This document shows, in pieces, positions 10,490-47,845 of a DNA stretch of 64,000 nt (position 1 is the stretch's first letter; every line of letters begins with the position of its first letter). The notes beneath the pieces are model-generated. The model was not told the origin of the DNA and did no database searches. It was given only the letters and a program-made list of their open reading frames with translations. A program made the position numbers and the translations under genes. This DNA is from Sulfuracidifex tepidarius (lineage in GTDB: Archaea; Thermoproteota; Thermoprotei_A; Sulfolobales; Sulfolobaceae), in NCBI RefSeq assembly GCF_008326425.1, contig NZ_AP018929.1:1-64000 (forward strand), given 5' to 3'.

Positions 10490-11572
10490 CTATTTAGAAA
10501 TTCGCTTAAGTAAAAACTCATCATCCAATAACTCTTTACTGATAATCATATTATATAGTGAGATAAGCCTTTCACTCTCGTTCCTGGAAACGTTAGATAG
10601 GTCGTCTGCAAGTTTATTTATTATAGTTATTTCCCTGAGCCCAGGCAGAGCCCATCTGTCCACAAAAGTTAAATCTTTTTCAGGATCCTCTCCCTTTTTT
10701 GAGAGGACATCAATCCTCCCTATAGGAGAAGCTAAATCTCTTTGGTAATAGAACGAGGTAATTTCCAGCTCGTCTTGGAAGTACCTCTTATAAGCACTGT
10801 ACGCCACTTCCAGTGAGTCTAACTCATTCACTCTCCTGTCCCTTAAGGAATCCTCCCATCTTATAGGTCCTAGATATAGTGAAGAATCATACATATTTTT
10901 GTACTTGCGATATTTTAAAAATAACATTGACACTATGAAATTTTCTGTTGCCTTAGAGATTTGTTTCAAACCTCTGTTCATGAGGTAATTTATTAAGAAC
11001 CTCTGTGAAAACCTCTTAGATATTCCAATTATTGCAGAGTTTCTCTTTTTTTGCATTAAAACGTCCGCTCTGAACTTTACATAATCTGAAAGGTCTGGAA
11101 AGTCGTCCACGTGAGGATCTTCGTAGTACGTAGGTGGATCTATAAGGGGCCCGTCTATCATTATCACGTCCGAGCCTTCGCATTTGTTCAGGAGCGTAGT
11201 CTCTAGATAAAGCATCAACAATATTGACTTATTCCCTATGACGTTTTCGTCATAGTAATTGCTTGCTATCTTGAACTCCTCCTCTATTTGTGGGGGTATG
11301 TCTTTCTCTCCTTCCTTGTCTTCGCCCCTGACAGCAACTGCCCTGGCTATCACGAAGACGCTATCTCGTAATGGAACTATGTATCTGCTACCGTCTATTG
11401 CGCACGCATTGTGGGGAGTAGATCTCTCCTTGACCTCCCTGAACTCAAGGTCTAAGTTACCGTCCCTGATGTCTTCAAATGCTATTTCAATGAGAGTGTT
11501 CACTTTTTCCCTCTCTTTCATGTTCCTTTCAGCTAAGTCCGTAATCCTTTTCACTAAGTCGTCGTTCTTCAT
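10490..11572 (-). CDS. NurA-like nuclease (paralogue outside the Mre11-Rad50 locus)
   Basis: 360 residues. The RNase-H-like NurA active site is visible: Asp60 (CAIDGSRY), Glu124 (LYLETTLL) and Asp140 (VIMIDGPLID), with the C-terminal FVDRWALPG also NurA-like. In the canonical system NurA is driven by the HerA hexamer to resect DNA ends. Here it closes an operon with a HerA-like ATPase, not with mre11/rad50, and overlaps the coiled-coil gene by 4 bp. Family assignment is good; its role as a second NurA system is inferred. Confidence 0.82.
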   Translation of the reverse strand: MKNDDLVKRITDLAERNMKEREKVNTLIEIAFEDIRDGNLDLEFREVKERSTPHNACAIDGSRYIVPLRDSVFVIARAVAVRGEDKEGEKDIPPQIEEEFKIASNYYDENVIGNKSILLMLYLETTLLNKCEGSDVIMIDGPLIDPPTYYEDPHVDDFPDLSDYVKFRADVLMQKKRNSAIIGISKRFSQRFLINYLMNRGLKQISKATENFIVSMLFLKYRKYKNMYDSSLYLGPIRWEDSLRDRRVNELDSLEVAYSAYKRYFQDELEITSFYYQRDLASPIGRIDVLSKKGEDPEKDLTFVDRWALPGLREITIINKLADDLSNVSRNESERLISLYNMIISKELLDDEFLLKRISK

Positions 11573-12276
11573 AACGACATCTCCACTTGAATCCCTTTCT
11601 CTATTAAGAGGCTAATTATCCTCATAATGTCATCATAATTGGATTTATTTACCTTTATCTTACCGTTTTCGATTAAGTCTATCATGATATTAAGACTTCT
11701 TTGATCCATGTTCCTTTCCTTTATTTTTTGTATCACGATCTCCTTCACTCTGTTGAGGTGAGCTTCAGCTTCCTTTAGCGTCGAATATAGCTCGGTAACA
11801 TAAGTTGATGAACTATAGAAAGTCCTTACCTCGACGTCTTCTTCTAGAAATTGGTTCAGTACTCTAGCGTAAACTTTAAGCGCCTTGTTGTTTTCTTCTA
11901 ATTTTTCCTTTAGGCTGTCTTTCGCTTTCCCCGTGGTCGCCTCGACATCTTTTACCAACTCTAACGCTTCACGATTTACGTAGGCTACCGTGTCCACTAT
12001 GTTGTCAGGATTATCTAGCCTTGAAATTTTCCTAAGCTCAGAAGTTAATCTCTCCAGTCTTTCAGATAACCTCTTGTCTTCGAAATCTATTTGTTGCAAA
12101 CTCCTGATCATCTCCCTTGCCTTGCTTAATGCTTTTAACGTGGAATCCAGTTTATCTGAAGTCTCGTGAAGCCTCCCTGCTATGCCCTTGAGTCTTTGGA
12201 GTTCCCCTTTCATATAATCAATGTTTAGTGTATCTTTGGTCTCCTTAAGTTTTATATAGAGTTCCTCAATTTTCAT
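11569..12276 (-). CDS. Coiled-coil protein of the HerA/NurA-like operon
   Basis: 235 residues, nearly all charged amphipathic helix with heptad patterning from about residue 5 to 200. No catalytic motif or membrane segment. It overlaps the big ATPase gene upstream by 11 bp and the NurA-like gene downstream by 4 bp, so stoichiometric co-expression is likely; it may bridge the ATPase and nuclease. Family not recognised. Confidence 0.8.
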   Translation of the reverse strand: MKIEELYIKLKETKDTLNIDYMKGELQRLKGIAGRLHETSDKLDSTLKALSKAREMIRSLQQIDFEDKRLSERLERLTSELRKISRLDNPDNIVDTVAYVNREALELVKDVEATTGKAKDSLKEKLEENNKALKVYARVLNQFLEEDVEVRTFYSSSTYVTELYSTLKEAEAHLNRVKEIVIQKIKERNMDQRSLNIMIDLIENGKIKVNKSNYDDIMRIISLLIEKGIQVEMSL

Positions 12277-15200
12277 ATTTACTCACCTTCATTTTTATTT
12301 CCTCCATGGTTTCTTCTATTTCCTGGGAGACCTTAGAAGTCTCTTTTCTGATCAAAGGCAACTCTGGCATCGCTTTATTTAAAGAATCAAAGAGTATTTC
12401 AATATCAGCTATTATCCTAGACGAGTCCTTCAGTTTATTAATATCGTTGAAAATCTCCATGTCCTTCAAGAAGTCGATTAGGGGTACTCTCATTCCGTTC
12501 AATGTGGATCTGAGCACCTTCATTACGAATAGCTTCAGGTGTACCGGTTGGTCCTGTGGCATCGAGATAGCTGATAACGTCTCGTCCATGGCCTCTTTGA
12601 ACTCCTCTCCTTTTCCTTCATTATATAAATTTCGTATTATTTTCTCTATTTCTCTTGAAATTTCGCCTATGTGATTAACCTTTGCTATAATAGTCTCTAT
12701 GAGCCTTTCCTCCTCCGTTGGTTCCTCTATCCCGAGGAATTTCCTCACTTTAACTATAACATCAATCTTGTTTAATATTTCAAGTTTAACTTGGTTTTCA
12801 GTCTGGTTGTTGCTCTCTTCTGCTAAGGACGATAGCTTATCGTAGATAGAAGAGAGTGCAACGTAAGCTGAACAGAACCTGAGGAAACTTAAATCCTCTT
12901 CGGCTTTCATGCACATGTCCTTGTAGCGTAACATTACGTTTCTCATCTCACTTAGGCTTCTAATTCCCGCGTCTCTCCTCTTCGCCGTTAAGAAGTAGTC
13001 GTCTATGTTATTTTGGCTGATCTCTGAAATTTTGTTTAAAATAGATTTAATTATCTCATCTTTCTCTAAATTTTTGAAAAGTTCTCCCGAAACTAATGAA
13101 ACATAAGTTAGGAAGTTCAGGCTCTGGTCTGCCTTGGTCTGAAATAGCCTTGCTACTGTGTTAACGAGCTTCTCGTCAGGCGTGCCTGAAGCCGAGGAAA
13201 TGAATGAATTGACTAACATGGGAACGTATTCGCCATATTTCTGCCTGATTAAACCGGCAACTATTGAGGAAATTCTTCGGGGTACTTCTCCGTTTAAGTC
13301 TCTGAAGTCCAAGAGTCCGTTCTTTTCTTTGATTACTCCGTTTGAGACCAGGTAAGGTACTATTTCCTCTTGAAGTAAGCTCTCGGTCTCGAAGTCCTCC
13401 AAATGAAATTGTTTCGATCCGAATATTCTAAACTTCTGGTTAACTATCGAGTCGGTTTTCTCGAAAACGTCCTTTACTTCAGCTACCTCATTCATGGGGT
13501 AGAAAATCAACCAATTGAAAGACTGGATGAGCCTCTGTTTCGTTGCTGGGAGCTGAGGAAAGATAAGTGTGTCATAAGCTTTATTAACAGTGTTCTCTAT
13601 CTCTCTCTTTAATTCGCCCAGCTTTATTTCAATGGAGTCGTATCTTATGTTAGCACCTTCTCTGAGCTTGTTAGCAAATAGCAAGTAGAGAAGCTGTCTT
13701 CTAGTAGGGACTGGGATGTCCAGAAGCGTTGATGATATTGATAATTTATCCATAGAGCCCAAGAGTTTTCCAATCATGTCCTGATTATCAGTTACGAAAT
13801 CGTTCTTTATCACTATCACGGAATGAACTACGTCGTTTTGGGAACGTTCGAGAATGGACTCGTCTACCTCAGAAGTAGGGTAAAGAAGAAGAACATTAAT
13901 TCTCTTTTCATTTATAGAGATCTGTAATGAAGCTAGCTGTGAGGACATTACGTTAACTTTGTCAACCTTCCATTCTGTTTTTGCAACTTTGATGAAGTTC
14001 ACTAAAGATTCCATCAACTTCTTGTTGTCAGTTATGTTCTCGTTGACGAATCTCAAAGCCATTTCCTTCTCTTCTCTAGATTTGAAGTCTACTATGAGCC
14101 CACCAACGTTTGCGTTAACTATCCTCTCATAAAAGTCCCACCTAAGGGCATAGAACTCTCCTGAAGCTAAGGGCAAAGTCCTTTCTTTAAGTTTCTTCAG
14201 GGTGTCGGTATCAGCCGAGATCCCTTCATATACCACCTTCTCTAATTCTTCGCTTACGAATATGTACAGCGAATCCTCTACACTTCTCGATCTACTTATG
14301 GTTAGGAGGAAATCCTCCAAGTTTGAAGCCAAAGGTAGATCGGAAGTAGCTTGCAACCACTTACTGTAGGGTATCAAACTTCCCTTAACTACTACCTTCT
14401 TTAACGGTTCAATGATTTCATCTTCAGTGAGACCTATTCTCTTCATCAGTGTAGAGTATATTCTCTTTCTCTCACTAACTTCTACTTCATCTTCAAGCTT
14501 CAAGAGCTCCTTCTCCTTTACTGTCTCCTCTTCGTCGTTCAGCACGTTTTTCGACGTTCCCCTAGCTATCTCTTGGAATGTTTCCTCAACTGAAGGGAAG
14601 TTACTAAGTATAACGTCGTTTATAAGTCTGGTATATTTCCTCCTCTCTGGTTGCGTAACCCAGAACGGTAGATCCATGAACTCTAGATATTTTAAAATAT
14701 CCGGATCACCGAATCCGTTCTGTTTAAGGGAACAGTTTATCATGAGCAGGAACTCAAGTTTCGATGGAAGGCTCAAGGATACTTTCTTAATTCTTTCAAG
14801 GAATGCAGGAAAAGTCTCTTGGAACAAGTATTGGATTTGCCCTCCAACACTGAATATCTTACTGAATGCACTTGGAGTCATAGATAGATAAATGATTGAA
14901 TTTCCTTGACTATTAGCTAATGTTTTTAGATTAATCCAGAAATCGCTTATCTCCTCTCTGTGCCTAGAGAAAACTATGGGGTCTACTAAGTTCTCTACTT
15001 CGTCTATCAGGACGACTCCTTCCTTTGGCGGTACCCATTGGTCGAGAATGTCAGAGAAATTTACCTTTTTTATGTCTATATGATACTCTTTTCCATATTC
15101 CTGTATTATATCGAGAAAGAAAGATTTCCCCTGTCCCCAATCTGCCACGAGAGCAATAATTTCAGGCGACTCTCTGTCGCTCTTTATTCTCTTTAACTCA

Positions 15201-15316
15201 TGTTCTACCTCGCTAAAGAATTTCAACCTATTAACGTATCTGATGTTGGAAACGCATCTAAATAGAGAAAACGCAGATTGGCTATCAGCCGCAGTCTCAC
15301 TGAGTCTCTTTGCCAT
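12266..15316 (-). CDS. Large P-loop ATPase (1016 aa) of the HerA/NurA-like operon
   Basis: The N-terminal ATPase core has a Walker A variant ADWGQGKS (58-65, Ala in place of the first Gly) and Walker B VVLIDEVE (100-107), followed by a sensor-1-like IIYLSMTPSAF segment. The remaining ~800 residues are helix-rich, without a second recognisable enzyme domain. Size and layout recall large ORC/STAND-like or defence-island ATPases, but I cannot place the family. It follows the HerA-like gene by 6 bp and overlaps the coiled-coil gene by 11 bp. Confidence 0.8.
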   Translation of the reverse strand: MAKRLSETAADSQSAFSLFRCVSNIRYVNRLKFFSEVEHELKRIKSDRESPEIIALVADWGQGKSFFLDIIQEYGKEYHIDIKKVNFSDILDQWVPPKEGVVLIDEVENLVDPIVFSRHREEISDFWINLKTLANSQGNSIIYLSMTPSAFSKIFSVGGQIQYLFQETFPAFLERIKKVSLSLPSKLEFLLMINCSLKQNGFGDPDILKYLEFMDLPFWVTQPERRKYTRLINDVILSNFPSVEETFQEIARGTSKNVLNDEEETVKEKELLKLEDEVEVSERKRIYSTLMKRIGLTEDEIIEPLKKVVVKGSLIPYSKWLQATSDLPLASNLEDFLLTISRSRSVEDSLYIFVSEELEKVVYEGISADTDTLKKLKERTLPLASGEFYALRWDFYERIVNANVGGLIVDFKSREEKEMALRFVNENITDNKKLMESLVNFIKVAKTEWKVDKVNVMSSQLASLQISINEKRINVLLLYPTSEVDESILERSQNDVVHSVIVIKNDFVTDNQDMIGKLLGSMDKLSISSTLLDIPVPTRRQLLYLLFANKLREGANIRYDSIEIKLGELKREIENTVNKAYDTLIFPQLPATKQRLIQSFNWLIFYPMNEVAEVKDVFEKTDSIVNQKFRIFGSKQFHLEDFETESLLQEEIVPYLVSNGVIKEKNGLLDFRDLNGEVPRRISSIVAGLIRQKYGEYVPMLVNSFISSASGTPDEKLVNTVARLFQTKADQSLNFLTYVSLVSGELFKNLEKDEIIKSILNKISEISQNNIDDYFLTAKRRDAGIRSLSEMRNVMLRYKDMCMKAEEDLSFLRFCSAYVALSSIYDKLSSLAEESNNQTENQVKLEILNKIDVIVKVRKFLGIEEPTEEERLIETIIAKVNHIGEISREIEKIIRNLYNEGKGEEFKEAMDETLSAISMPQDQPVHLKLFVMKVLRSTLNGMRVPLIDFLKDMEIFNDINKLKDSSRIIADIEILFDSLNKAMPELPLIRKETSKVSQEIEETMEEIKMKVSKYEN

Positions 15317-15322
15317 AGTATT

Positions 15323-16930
15323 TTAATCTGCAGACAATACTCTTTCAACTCTTTCCACGCTACCTGCGTATGATCCCAACCTAGCATCCCAAGGTATTTT
15401 CACCAACACTGGACTACGCATGGCAGACATCAACCCGTTGACTATCACGTATCCTGTGTCGAGCGATGTCAAAGCGTGTGACAAAGACTCTGGTAGACCT
15501 CCTGAGGCAGACATTACATACCTGACGTCCTCGTGATAGATCCTGTGGAAGAAGAATGTGTTCAACATGGAAAGGACGTACTTATCTATGAATGCAGGTC
15601 TCTGGCTGACAAGGAAGAGGGAGAGACCGAACTTCCTCCCTTGAGTGGCTAAGGTGACTAGGATGTCCTTAGTTAAGTTTGCATTTACGGGATAATCGTT
15701 AGAGGGAATATAGTTTTGGGCTTCCTCGATTATGAACGCTAAGAAACGTTGCGAGCCGTTATATTTAGTTCTTGTAAGGTAGTTATAAGTGATTCTAGAT
15801 ATGTAACTCACTATTAGCTGTTTTGTGGTTATGTCTATCCCTGGTGAGGCGTCGGCGGAAAAGTCAACTGTAGCTAATCCACGAGACCTCCACATGACTT
15901 CGAGCGTGTTTTCAGTCAAGGATGCGTTGGAGCTCACCAAAGCTAACTTATTTACTACCTTATTTCTGAATATCTCCAGTGCGCTTTGTATGCTTCTAGA
16001 GGTACTGTAATTGAAACCCAGCTCCTTGTTGGAGGCAGCTTCATTTATCTCCTGTTTAAGGTTATCCAGACCGGTGGGAGTACCTAGGAGGAAGTTGAAG
16101 TCCTTTTGGTCATGGAGGGAAAGTATGTACTCTAAGAAATTAGATTGAAGGGCGTTCCCTCCAGATTGGCCATACTTAAGGGAGGTTATGAATTCTGCAA
16201 GATCTCTAGGAGAAAACAGGGAGAGATCTATAGTTAGCCTCTGGTCGTTCGGGAAAACTGGATCTCTGAGGACGTATCTCTTTATCCATCTCCTTCCGGT
16301 TAACATGTTTGAATTTGTATATGTAAAGTCAGCATAATCTCCGTTAGCGTCGATTAGCATAACTGGAATAGCTTCATCTTTTTCTCCTATTCGAATGCTA
16401 GATAAGTTGTAGAGAAGGTATCTCATGTTGTAGCTCTTTCCGCTACCGGTCTCTCCGAAAATTCCTACGTGCATGGTGATCGAGTTCAGGTCCAATAGAA
16501 GCGGTATATTTGAGCCAGCTAGTCTACCGTATTTTATATATCCATTGAAGTCAGGTAGTCCATAGAAATCGGGTAAATCACTGTCGTTTATTTCGGGTAA
16601 GGTTTTAATTAATGAACCCGGCTTTGGCGTAGACGAATGCCCATATCTCCTTATGATCGAAAGATCGGCTCTAGTTACTGTCCCTGAACTTAGTAAGCTA
16701 TAGATCTCCGATGACCCGCTTAAAGGTCTTATAAGCTCGGAGTCCTCCGCGAAGAAGTTATTTATATACTCAAAGGACTCTATTCTTCCTAGTGATATTT
16801 TTTCATGATCTTGAACTACTAAAAGTTGTCCCATACTGACGTCTAGGTTCTGAGCTAAAATCGCTCTGACGGCGTTGTTCTGTCCTTTCTGTAATACTAT
16901 CCCAACAGGTTCGTTCTTGTCCAGATCCAT
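15323..16930 (-). CDS. HerA-like hexameric DNA-translocating ATPase
   Basis: 535 residues: an N-terminal beta-barrel of the HAS type (about 5-90), then the DUF87/FtsK-HerA ATPase core with Walker A GETGSGKS (159-166), Walker B FLAFIIEEAQNYI in the C-terminal third, and the sensor-like LVSQRP. HerA proteins pump duplex DNA and activate NurA nuclease. This copy heads an operon with a large ATPase, a coiled-coil protein and a NurA-like protein, unlike the canonical herA-mre11-rad50-nurA arrangement. It is 164 bp downstream of the TGT/ArcS-like pair on the same strand and may have its own promoter there. Confidence 0.88.
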   Translation of the reverse strand: MDLDKNEPVGIVLQKGQNNAVRAILAQNLDVSMGQLLVVQDHEKISLGRIESFEYINNFFAEDSELIRPLSGSSEIYSLLSSGTVTRADLSIIRRYGHSSTPKPGSLIKTLPEINDSDLPDFYGLPDFNGYIKYGRLAGSNIPLLLDLNSITMHVGIFGETGSGKSYNMRYLLYNLSSIRIGEKDEAIPVMLIDANGDYADFTYTNSNMLTGRRWIKRYVLRDPVFPNDQRLTIDLSLFSPRDLAEFITSLKYGQSGGNALQSNFLEYILSLHDQKDFNFLLGTPTGLDNLKQEINEAASNKELGFNYSTSRSIQSALEIFRNKVVNKLALVSSNASLTENTLEVMWRSRGLATVDFSADASPGIDITTKQLIVSYISRITYNYLTRTKYNGSQRFLAFIIEEAQNYIPSNDYPVNANLTKDILVTLATQGRKFGLSLFLVSQRPAFIDKYVLSMLNTFFFHRIYHEDVRYVMSASGGLPESLSHALTSLDTGYVIVNGLMSAMRSPVLVKIPWDARLGSYAGSVERVERVLSAD

Positions 16931-17094: not shown

Positions 17095-17700
17095 TCATGT
17101 GTTGTTTATCGCATTTATTTCTTTGCCTTTTGTTTCTAAATTTTCTATAGATTCACTGATAGACCTAAATGCCAATTTCCCATATCTCATGAGGTATAAC
17201 TTTAAGCCTTCCTTCCTCGAGGCTCTGTCGACTATGGAATAGTGATGAGTAGGAAGAACCCCAACTATAACTTTGTGTTGTTTGGCAATTTTTGCTAGAG
17301 GCTTTCTGAGCAGTTCAACGAACTCATCTTTTTCCTGCACTGTCATGACCTTTGGAGAATACTCATAGGAACTAAAAGGATAGCATTCCTCGACTTCTCT
17401 GGGAACTAACAGCATCGGTTCAGATACCGAATAAACCTGAACGTGGTTATCTAGATTTTTCCTCTTTAAAATAGAATAAACTAGTCTATGTGTAGCTGAT
17501 CTACTATAAGGTTTAACAGACGTACAAGGTAACAGCAAAGCCAACGGTTTAGTAGACTCATATGATTGAAAGAAAAACTCGTGCCATTTCTTAACTGTTG
17601 GATTAATGAAGAGGTCTTCCCCTTCTCTCTTTATAATAGGTTGAAAAGAGTTAATCTTAAGCTGATAATAAAGAGTTTGACAGTTTATCACATTGCTCAC
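17095..17700 (-). CDS. Stand-alone ArcS-core (DUF5591-like) protein
   Basis: 201 residues. It holds the archaeosine-synthase signature PC-X3-KPY-X2-S-X2-H as PCTSVKPYSRSATH (58-71), followed by VPREVEECYPFSSYEYSP, also typical of the ArcS core. In full-length ArcS this domain adds lysine to preQ0 in tRNA; here it lacks the TGT-like and PUA domains. Short ArcS-core proteins are known to me from DNA-modifying haloviruses. The GTG start overlaps the TGT-like gene by 44 bp, so the two probably act together on one 7-deazaguanine substrate, tRNA or DNA. Confidence 0.75.
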   Translation of the reverse strand: MSNVINCQTLYYQLKINSFQPIIKREGEDLFINPTVKKWHEFFFQSYESTKPLALLLPCTSVKPYSRSATHRLVYSILKRKNLDNHVQVYSVSEPMLLVPREVEECYPFSSYEYSPKVMTVQEKDEFVELLRKPLAKIAKQHKVIVGVLPTHHYSIVDRASRKEGLKLYLMRYGKLAFRSISESIENLETKGKEINAINNT

Positions 17701-18550
17701 CTATTTCGTCTTCCATCTCAGAAAGGTTCATCTCTGGCTCTACCTCTTGCCTTTTAGAGCTATAAGACGATTTAATAAGAACCCACGCGTTTATCAGGCT
17801 CCTTTGTTTCCAATGTGATAAGTCTACTCTGAAAGGAAAGCTTGTCTTTTCAAGGAATGAAAGTAACGAGTCCAACTCCTCCTGAGAAGCTCTCTTGACC
17901 CTCCATACTATTTTCCTCTCTCCCACATATCGTTCACCTTTTCCAGGTATTATCACCATGCCATGAATGGCTTTTATTCTGTAAGTAGAAGTATCTACGC
18001 TGTTTGCGTCATAGAAAATTGTCCTCATATAAGGGGATCCAGCACCGAGAACGTGTATCCATGTAGAAGATAAATGCTTTCTAATTACCTTGTATATCTT
18101 CCTGACAAGGTCTCTACTTCCTCTCTGTCCCATCGTTGGAGGGACTATTCCCCCGTAAGCTATCTTCTTTACCCCGTAAGATTTGTAAAAGTCAATTGAT
18201 TCCATGAGACTCTCTCTGTTGTAGGCGTGGATCACAGGGACTATTTCCCTGTCCTCGAGTTTGTGATAGAGGAACTCGAAGTTCTGAAAGTTTTCCCGCG
18301 GAACAGGAGAACAAGGGGGAACGGGTCTGTCCAGACTCATGAAAACTTTTGCATTCAAATAAGTGTATTTCTTATAAACTGTCTCTAAATTTACATCCAT
18401 CCTTCTCATCATGATCTGGTAACCGCCAGAGTCCACCCACGTTTCGTTCTCCCAGGGGATCTTCTCCCACGTAAGTTGGTTTATCATTAGGGGAACTCCT
18501 AGTTCCCAGATAGGCAGCCTACCGTCAGGTATTCCTAAAACGATTTTCAT
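17657..18550 (-). CDS. tRNA-guanine transglycosylase-like protein (TgtA/DpdA-type), no PUA domain
   Basis: 297 residues forming a TGT-type TIM barrel. The general base is Asp40 in DSGGYQ, the base-binding Asp74 in MSLDRPVPP, then YGGIVPPT (132-139), HVLGAG (166-171), and the likely nucleophile Asp186 in SVDTSTYR. Both catalytic aspartates are present, unlike the TGT-like domain of ArcS. Archaeal tRNA TgtA is much longer (C1, C2 and PUA domains); those parts are absent here, which makes the protein resemble DpdA, the TGT paralogue that puts 7-deazaguanines into DNA. Substrate (tRNA or DNA) cannot be settled by eye. Confidence 0.78.
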   Translation of the reverse strand: MKIVLGIPDGRLPIWELGVPLMINQLTWEKIPWENETWVDSGGYQIMMRRMDVNLETVYKKYTYLNAKVFMSLDRPVPPCSPVPRENFQNFEFLYHKLEDREIVPVIHAYNRESLMESIDFYKSYGVKKIAYGGIVPPTMGQRGSRDLVRKIYKVIRKHLSSTWIHVLGAGSPYMRTIFYDANSVDTSTYRIKAIHGMVIIPGKGERYVGERKIVWRVKRASQEELDSLLSFLEKTSFPFRVDLSHWKQRSLINAWVLIKSSYSSKRQEVEPEMNLSEMEDEIGEQCDKLSNSLLSA

Positions 18551-46217: not shown

Positions 46218-47051
46218 TCAGTAATGATATAAGTATTTATGTAGTTCTTTTCGATGGTCTTTGGCACCAGAGCTGAACCTAGCCCTTCTGTTTTCTTCAG
46301 CGTTGATCAAGAAGGTTCTTGTTTCCTCTTTCATGTCGTCCATTTTCATTACCACTTTTCCAGAAGGAGAAGAAATCATGGATCCTCCCCAGAAGTATTC
46401 CTCTTCGCCTTGTCCTACCATATTGATGAAGACTATCCATACAGAGTTCATTAGTGAATGAGCAATTATTAGTGATCTCCAACTATCTCTGATATCTATC
46501 ATGGAAGACCTAAAAGGAGACGCGGATATCACAAAGACTATGTCTGCTCCTTTCCTGGTGAGAAGCTCTATTGGTTCCGGATGCCAAGCATCTTCACAGA
46601 CTACTGTGCCCATAGTCTCTCCTTTATACTTGAACGTCCTCAGGTTCTTCACGTCTCCTTCTTGGAAGTATCTTTTCTCGTCAAAAAGGTCGTAGTTAGC
46701 AAGATATAATTTATCGATGAATAGAGGTTTCTTTCCTTTTCTGAGGACTACAGCGGAGTTCCTCAGTATGCCCTTCCTCACTTCTCTTGGGATTCCTAGG
46801 ACGACACACTTATCAATATCATCTACTGTAGTCATAAGTTTCTCTAAGGCTGAGTCCACACTGGGAGTAACATTGAAGAAATAATCCCTAGTCGTATACC
46901 CGGTCAAAGAAAGTTCTGGGAAGACAACGCAGTCAGCTACGCTTTTCCTCATGATTGACAAATGTTTCTCTAAGTTGTCCTTTACATTACCCGGTTTGAC
47001 GTGGATCTGAGCAAGTTCTACGTTTATTCCCATATCCTTGGATACCTCCAA
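46218..47051 (-). CDS. Carbon-nitrogen hydrolase, glutaminase subunit for NAD synthetase (putative)
   Basis: 277 residues of the nitrilase fold with the full Glu46-Lys114-Cys152 triad (FPELSLTGY, FIDKLYL, VVCEDAWHP). In most bacteria and eukaryotes this domain is fused to NAD synthetase to supply ammonia from glutamine; here it is a separate gene overlapping the 3' end of nadE by 28 bp, so a two-subunit enzyme is likely. A second in-frame Met at residue 7 (47033) is an alternative start. Confidence 0.82.
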   Translation of the reverse strand: MEVSKDMGINVELAQIHVKPGNVKDNLEKHLSIMRKSVADCVVFPELSLTGYTTRDYFFNVTPSVDSALEKLMTTVDDIDKCVVLGIPREVRKGILRNSAVVLRKGKKPLFIDKLYLANYDLFDEKRYFQEGDVKNLRTFKYKGETMGTVVCEDAWHPEPIELLTRKGADIVFVISASPFRSSMIDIRDSWRSLIIAHSLMNSVWIVFINMVGQGEEEYFWGGSMISSPSGKVVMKMDDMKEETRTFLINAEENRRARFSSGAKDHRKELHKYLYHY

Positions 47052-47845
47052 TCTGAACCTACAGTTCTCCCAGATATTTTAAATATTTCAGGCATCTTCC
47101 TCTTATGCTCATTATTTCTGACTAATCTAATCACCTTATCCACGTTCTCTCTTGATGTTTTTACTTCTTGAGCTACCTTCTGCGGGTCCATAAATTTTTC
47201 ATAGAGAAGATAAAGAATTTTATCTACACTTTCATAATCAATTCCTAATTCGCCCTCCGCAGTCTGTCCCTCCCATAAGGCTGGGGAGCTTGGTTTCTCG
47301 ATTATGTTCTTGGGTATTCCAATTTGTTGTGCAAGTTTCTTTACTTGAGTCTTATATAGATCCCCTATGGGCAAGACGTCTACTCCACCGTCACCGTATT
47401 TTGTGAAGTAGCCTAGCAGAATCTCGCTCTTGTCTCCAGTTCCTATTACTAAGTAATCAAGTTTCTGTGCATATGCGTAAAGTAAGGTCATTCTGACTCT
47501 TGCCTTTATGTTCCCAACCAATACCTTGTCGTCGCTGTCCACCTTGGAGGAAAAAGACTTCACTAAGTCATCAATTTTAATCTCAGAGTAAGGCGCTCCC
47601 ACACTTCTTAGCATCGTGTAGGAATCTTGTATGTCTTTTGCCGGAGTACTTTCAGACGGCATTAGAAGGACGTGAACGTTCCTGGTAGCTTGAGTCAATA
47701 GTTTTAGAACTACGGAGGAGTCTATCCCCCCGCTCAGTCCTATAACTCCTCCCTTTTTCCCAGAAGCTTGGATGTACTCCCTAAGTCTTGTTATTAAGTA
47801 ATTTGAGACGAAATTCCAGTCCATTTCTAACTCTTGCATCATCAA
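47024..47845 (-). CDS. nadE: NAD(+) synthetase, ammonia-channel subunit
   Basis: 273 residues. The ATP-pyrophosphatase loop is GLSGGIDSS (36-44), and GTGDKSEILLGYFTKYGDGG is the deamido-NAD-binding block. This is the short form lacking a fused glutaminase. It converts deamido-NAD to NAD. Its start overlaps the membrane glycosyltransferase gene by 4 bp and its end overlaps the nitrilase-like gene by 28 bp. Several Met codons in a row at the start leave the exact N-terminus open. Confidence 0.93.
   Translation of the reverse strand: MMMQELEMDWNFVSNYLITRLREYIQASGKKGGVIGLSGGIDSSVVLKLLTQATRNVHVLLMPSESTPAKDIQDSYTMLRSVGAPYSEIKIDDLVKSFSSKVDSDDKVLVGNIKARVRMTLLYAYAQKLDYLVIGTGDKSEILLGYFTKYGDGGVDVLPIGDLYKTQVKKLAQQIGIPKNIIEKPSSPALWEGQTAEGELGIDYESVDKILYLLYEKFMDPQKVAQEVKTSRENVDKVIRLVRNNEHKRKMPEIFKISGRTVGSDWRYPRIWE

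Follow-up and report, generated by a model that had tools for sequence, protein, structure and literature searches.

Does a pair of overlapping archaeal genes, one encoding a guanine transglycosylase (TGT)-like protein and the other the core of the archaeosine synthase ArcS, act on tRNA or on DNA? This question was raised by a 64,000-nucleotide stretch of the Sulfuracidifex tepidarius chromosome (the window). Archaeosine is known as a base of tRNA; in DNA, 7-deazaguanines have been described in phages, in viruses and in the Dpd islands of bacteria. The active-site histidine of the TGT-like protein, the operon partners of the pair and its co-occurrence with other genes indicated that the substrate is quite probably DNA. 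On balance, we also lean towards a scheme in which the pair marks DNA, a HerA-NurA machinery destroys DNA that is unmarked, and viruses have copied the marking. The wider proposal of a chromosomal system of self/non-self recognition in Thermoproteota, with a clamp-tethered writer in some lineages and viral copies serving counter-defence, seems to us evenly balanced. The features concerned are listed in Table 1.

Table 1. Genes of the pair and of the adjoining operon, with positions counted in the window.
Feature	Length (aa)	Positions	Strand	Basis or remark
TGT-like (DpdA-like) guanine transglycosylase	297	17657..18550	(-)	D40/D74/D186 conserved, H108, profile, AlphaFold
ArcS-core (DUF5591) protein, GTG start	201	17095..17700	(-)	Pfam, motif, model
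HerA-type DNA translocase paralogue	535	15323..16930	(-)	not canonical repair HerA
P-loop ATPase	1016	12266..15316	(-)	Walker A GQGKS, Walker B LIDEVE
Coiled-coil protein, same operon	235	11569..12276	(-)	
NurA-domain nuclease (predicted)	360	10490..11572	(-)	D60 and D140 conserved

The initial annotation of this DNA had described a TGT barrel with Asp40 and Asp186, overlapping by 44 bp a 201-residue protein with the signature PC-X3-KPY-X2-S-X2-H. For the first protein, frame, residues, profile and fold matches all agreed with that description; for the second, the reading frames bore out both signature and overlap, with the TGT-like gene upstream. A short overlap of the two genes (17-44 bp) is retained in three genera and in the viruses STSV1 and STSV2. 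Homologues of the TGT-like protein were found in 61 of the 197 genomes of the order, short ArcS-core proteins in 71, and both in 54.

One explanation, held in reserve by the initial annotation, is that the pair is a split version of the tRNA archaeosine pathway; the folds of TGT and ArcS and the names of their domains are in its favor. The search for a separate full-length tgtA and for GAT-QueC, proposed there as a check, found both. This genome encodes a TgtA of 498 aa with the base-binding Gln and the zinc motif; TgtA was present in 29 of the 31 genomes of the family (28 of the 28 of high quality), and 30 of the 31 gave a QueC match whose frame, at 463-511 aa, is as long as that of GAT-QueC, in each case with or without the pair. 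The GAT domain in these frames was deduced from their size and the published pathway (PMC5485725). Because TgtA and a QueC of GAT-QueC size are present whether the pair is there or not, the two genes come in addition to the synthesis of archaeosine in tRNA, and the split-form pathway was set aside as very improbable. Outside the window, this genome also encodes a second, short QueC-like protein of 201 aa (G000:C1:765202-765759), which occurs in many but not all relatives.

In the TGT-like protein, D40 (context WVDSGGYQ), D74, H108 and D186 (context NSVDTSTYR) were invariant across 28 aligned TGT-like sequences from cells and viruses, and the residues of ArcTGT around D95, D130 and D249 were the counterparts of D40, D74 and D186 in a profile alignment. 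A profile of 28 sequences matched the solved ArcTGT of Pyrococcus (1iq8, E 6e-8) and the solved Salmonella-type DpdA (7ui4, E 2e-4). Aligned to the family profile, the DpdA of phage 9g covered 229 columns (E 1.9e-11) and TgtA covered 176 (E 2.6e-11), so that ancestry is not decidable from sequence alone. The AlphaFold model (pLDDT 79, pTM 0.80) was close to 1iq8 both by Foldseek (E 4e-9) and by superposition (Z 20.4, 2.8 A, 250 residues). Among the matches listed in the structure comparisons, the solved folds nearest to the model were all tRNA-acting TGTs, and DpdA 7ui4 was not among the 50 matches listed in the VIA comparison. These fold matches, together with the identity of ArcS as a tRNA enzyme (PMC11298593), would suit a second explanation, in which the pair modifies RNA beyond tRNA G15 (a second tRNA site or rRNA) and its link with HerA and NurA is an accident of shared inheritance.

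The base-binding strand points instead to DNA. In the TGT-like family this strand reads PVIHAY, with the invariant H108, versus YPIQGG, with Gln, in TgtA; the same alignment column is His in phage 9g DpdA (PCFHAG), in the solved DpdA 7ui4 (VAHGW) and in a distant archaeal relative, G410 (VLHAWSKK). A conserved histidine of DpdA has been described at position 196 and is missing from DpdA2 (PMC6884629); judging from the alignment, H108 probably corresponds to it. The presence of His at position 108, a DpdA-type residue, thus favors a DNA enzyme over a tRNA TGT as a prediction from sequence, and D40, H108 and D186 together provide the Asp pair and conserved His of DpdA. Both hallmarks of TgtA, the base-binding Gln and the CxCxxC zinc motif, are missing from the window protein (P0001), while the TgtA of this genome has both; CxCxxC does occur in the distant TGT-like relatives G304 and G410. 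The absence of a PUA domain, to which the initial annotation had drawn attention, is unremarkable here because Pfam finds no PUA in the full TgtA of this genome either.

Library models for either class scored low. The comparison with DpdA profiles that had been suggested along with the first description gave 20.9 bits (E 1.4e-4) for NCBIfam NF041059, far under its 200-bit cut-off; of the TgtA/ArcTGT models, TIGR00432 gave 15.1 bits (cut-off 350) and PF01702 (cut-off 26.3) no match. Used alone in tblastn, the G410 TGT-like protein matched STSV1 (E 7e-14) and 9g-type DpdA (E 3e-3).

The second protein of the pair shares with ArcS the DUF5591 core (Pfam, 65.4 bits, cut-off 26) and the PC-X3-KPY motif but, unlike ArcS, consists of the core alone, without the TGT-like and PUA parts; it scored 68.5 and 51.2 bits with the NCBIfam models of full-length ArcS, below their cut-offs of 440 and 600 bits. 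In the complete motif, P58-C59-X3-K63-P64-Y65-X2-S68-X2-H71, the residues P58, C59, K63, P64 and Y65 were invariant among the ArcS-core relatives aligned. The model of the protein was nearest to AF0587 (2q07, Z 12.2), and SMUG1 uracil-DNA glycosylases appeared as weak, second-rank Foldseek matches (E 3e-3). A search for plasmid homologues of the ArcS-core found none. In one genome (G159, L069:9796-10365) the ArcS-core is present without the TGT-like gene or the ATPase described below, either as a remnant or with a function of its own.

Directly downstream of the pair, on the same strand, lie genes for HerA, the large ATPase, the coiled-coil protein and NurA. Conserved residues include K165, E403 and R432 of the operon HerA, in addition to the two aspartates of NurA. 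The canonical HerA is encoded elsewhere in this genome (C1:2426271, 845 bits with NF040937) and in all 31 family genomes; the operon HerA, with 95.7 bits against a cut-off of 800, is a paralogue far from that class, which sets the operon apart from the canonical HerA-NurA pair of end resection. Of the 31 family genomes, the 18 with the TGT-like gene all had the 1016-aa ATPase and the 13 without it all lacked the ATPase, a pattern for which a naive exact test gives p = 5e-9, a statistic weakened by the kinship of the genomes. On the best TgtA tree this pattern needs four changes, only two of them on well supported branches; few independent events therefore underlie the concordance of the TGT-like gene and the ATPase within Sulfolobaceae. 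Genera g2, g6 and g7, as well as genome G050 of g5, have the operon at a different site, separate from the TGT-like gene, so the co-occurrence reflects more than linkage, and whole genera lack the entire set. The block at the window locus is syntenic between genera; this synteny, along with the nesting of viral copies in the host clade described below, spoke against a viral insertion or prophage at the locus, an origin that was rejected.

This joint inheritance suggests that the pair and the HerA-NurA set form a previously unrecognised self-marking defence. It also bears on the RNA explanation, against which count the exact match in occurrence between the pair and the ATPase, even where they lie at different loci, and the loss of the entire set in whole genera. 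The pair had been described at first as a minimal 7-deazaguanine module, a description that has to be widened, as its co-occurrence with HerA, ATPase and NurA, and the operons of distant archaea, tie the pair to these genes.

Sliding clamps, HerA and NurA act on DNA, and genes for all three adjoin TGT genes in distant archaea. Single operons occur there, with the genes in the following orders. In G184 (family f2), TGT, ArcS-core, NurA, HerA and a 1478-aa AAA protein form an array on one strand. G304 (family f32) has TGT, a 255-aa clamp-like protein with weak similarity to PCNA (1rwz, E 0.007), ArcS-core, HerA, a 1463-aa ATPase and NurA, and G410 (family f14) has TGT, a PCNA-domain protein (E about 9e-13 to 4e-16 against PDB PCNAs), a 292-aa protein possibly with a winged helix-turn-helix, a 1196-aa ATPase, NurA and HerA. 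In family f30 the TGT-like gene adjoins a HerA gene. In G380 (L143:8999-19361), TGT and a PCNA/Rad9-like protein (PF00705, E 5e-7) are followed by genes for an AAA protein, a helicase of the DEAD type and a protein with an MZB domain; here the marking half may be unchanged but joined to a different restriction half. Phage 9g offers a parallel to G410, G380 and perhaps G304, its replicative clamp gene adjoining dpdA (L183:2006-3960). The ATPases of the distant operons had no detectable homology to the Sulfolobaceae ATPase.

Families f3, f7 and f8 have the TGT-like and ArcS-core genes unlinked and without an adjoining HerA operon. Unlinked genes that are widespread in several families are what would be expected of a housekeeping RNA enzyme; the operons of distant archaea with HerA, NurA and PCNA-like genes are not, and, taken with the histidine and the co-occurrence, they make modification of RNA a rather poor explanation of the pair. 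A 1480-aa ATPase in f8 genomes was considered as a counterpart and rejected, the match being weak and neither HerA nor NurA adjoining it in the stretches examined. At two loci of other genomes (L114:7414-9033 and L115:10181-11812) the TGT-like gene adjoins an ABC-type permease (BPD_transp_1).

In a third explanation DNA is indeed the substrate of the pair, and the HerA-ATPase-NurA operon serves the replication or repair of modified DNA and not restriction. PCNA-like partners point to replication, and canonical HerA and NurA act in the resection of DNA ends (PMC4351679, PMC12977600). The operon HerA, however, is a paralogue that exists beside the canonical HerA found in all 31 genomes, and both the patchy presence of the set across genera and the capture by viruses of the marking genes only fit defence better. 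The exchange of partners seen in G380, where the DEAD helicase and the MZB protein take the place of HerA and NurA, would likewise be typical of restriction-like systems. We consider a replication or repair role unlikely, and retain destruction of unmarked DNA as the preferred function of the operon.

Viruses of Sulfolobales hosts provided a further line of evidence. STSV1, STSV2 and STSV4 carry the pair, each 55% identical to the window proteins, and in STSV1 and STSV2 it adjoins thyX, near a DNA methyltransferase gene. Rudiviruses carry the TGT-like gene only, without the ArcS-core; the window protein is 35-40% identical over its full length to those of the SIRVs. In the tree, STSV and rudiviral proteins fell on separate branches inside the Sulfolobaceae clade, which is most simply read as capture of host genes, probably on two occasions. 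When viral contigs were searched for the ArcS-core, the window protein (P0002) alone found none and the profile found only STSV1 and STSV2. In phage records, no relative of the 1016-aa ATPase was found, and the operon HerA had only distant HerA or terminase matches. The initial annotation had mentioned short ArcS-core proteins of DNA-modifying haloviruses; the closest viral relatives of the pair proved to be Sulfolobus viruses. These viral TGT-like proteins (STSV1/2, rudiviruses), called DpdA4 in later work, belong to the same family as the window copy, which differs in being chromosomal and accompanied by a nuclease operon.

Among rudiviruses, the TGT-like gene is present in all those of S. 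islandicus, in SBRV1 and in SRV, and missing from ARV1-3, MRV1, SSRV1 and SMRV1. A strict link between the rudiviral gene and the host was rejected, since SSRV1 of S. solfataricus lacks it. A gene annotated as 'aminoacid permease' adjoins the TGT-like gene in SIRV2 (L048:1793-2992) and SRV (L049:2815-4074); its product might bring the free base into the cell. Twelve Ligamenvirales and two Bicaudaviridae have been counted among the viruses with dpdA or G+ genes (PMC6884629). In the literature covered, the one modification reported for STSV1 is of cytosine, not guanine (PMC11208441, citing Xiang 2005).

Altogether, these observations suggested the following mechanism. The TGT-like protein would cut the glycosidic bond of selected DNA guanines, presumably in a target sequence, through Asp186 and put in their place a free base of the 7-deazaguanine type; preQ0 or a derivative of it, from the host preQ0/GAT-QueC pathway, is the likeliest candidate, and GAT-QueC could supply either preQ0 or the archaeosine base. 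Once the base is in the DNA, the ArcS-core may alter its nitrile side chain, by adding lysine or ammonia or by hydrolysing the nitrile in the fashion of DpdC (PMC12839542), and the final mark is perhaps archaeosine. In some lineages the TGT-like enzyme would be tethered to a dedicated PCNA-like clamp. HerA translocase, large ATPase, coiled coil and NurA would load on and degrade DNA without the mark, and STSV, with the pair, and many rudiviruses, with the TGT-like gene only, may have taken the host marking genes to mark their own DNA. The earlier suggestion of a base-exchange enzyme and a side-chain enzyme working perhaps on DNA is thus kept with its chemistry as a prediction, strengthened by the separate TgtA and GAT-QueC, and its minimal scope is given up. 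Against the system as a whole count the cytosine report, the few independent events and the unlinked genes of f3, f7 and f8, as well as the unrelated ATPases of distant operons, the rudiviruses lacking an ArcS-core and the solitary ArcS-core of G159.

The Dpd systems of bacteria and of phages such as 9g and CAjan share with the pair the TGT fold, the catalytic Asp pair and the histidine of the base-binding strand, as well as the combination of DpdA with a side-chain enzyme. Their marking is used against restriction, as is proposed here, and phage 9g DNA carries archaeosine (PMC6884629). Unlike Dpd systems, the window has HerA, ATPase, coiled coil, NurA and ArcS-core as partners, and a PADLOC scan of the six window proteins returned a weak DpdA model and general HerA models but no other Dpd model (DpdA-K). 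BREX-related capture (BRC) resembles the locus in its HerA/FtsK translocase, in a TGT at some loci and in a proposed self/non-self marking (PMC12839542). The parts that define BRC are PglZ, DUF6079, a STAND NTPase and DUF4007 (PMC12839542), none of which had a Pfam match above cut-off in the window operon; conversely, NurA and ArcS-core, both present here, are not in the published part list of BRC (PMC12839542). Since TGT with HerA was already proposed in BRC (PMC12839542) and DNA 7-deazaguanines are known, the system proposed here would be a Dpd-like variant. A link between TGT and NurA was not found in the literature searched, the 2023 DpdA-subfamily, STSV1 and Dpd structure papers lying outside that search.

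If the preferred reading is correct, archaeal chromosomal DNA marking tied to its own HerA-NurA nuclease would add a new kind of immunity resembling restriction, and the SIRV and STSV genes long annotated as 'queuine tRNA-ribosyltransferase' would gain a function. Recruitment of DNA transglycosylases by sliding clamps would be a further implication. Genetically tractable Saccharolobus, to which the viruses of S. islandicus point, may allow testing. Elsewhere in the window (46218-47845), a nitrilase-like gene is followed by one for a short NadE-like NAD synthase; by eye, the two perhaps form a two-part NAD synthetase.
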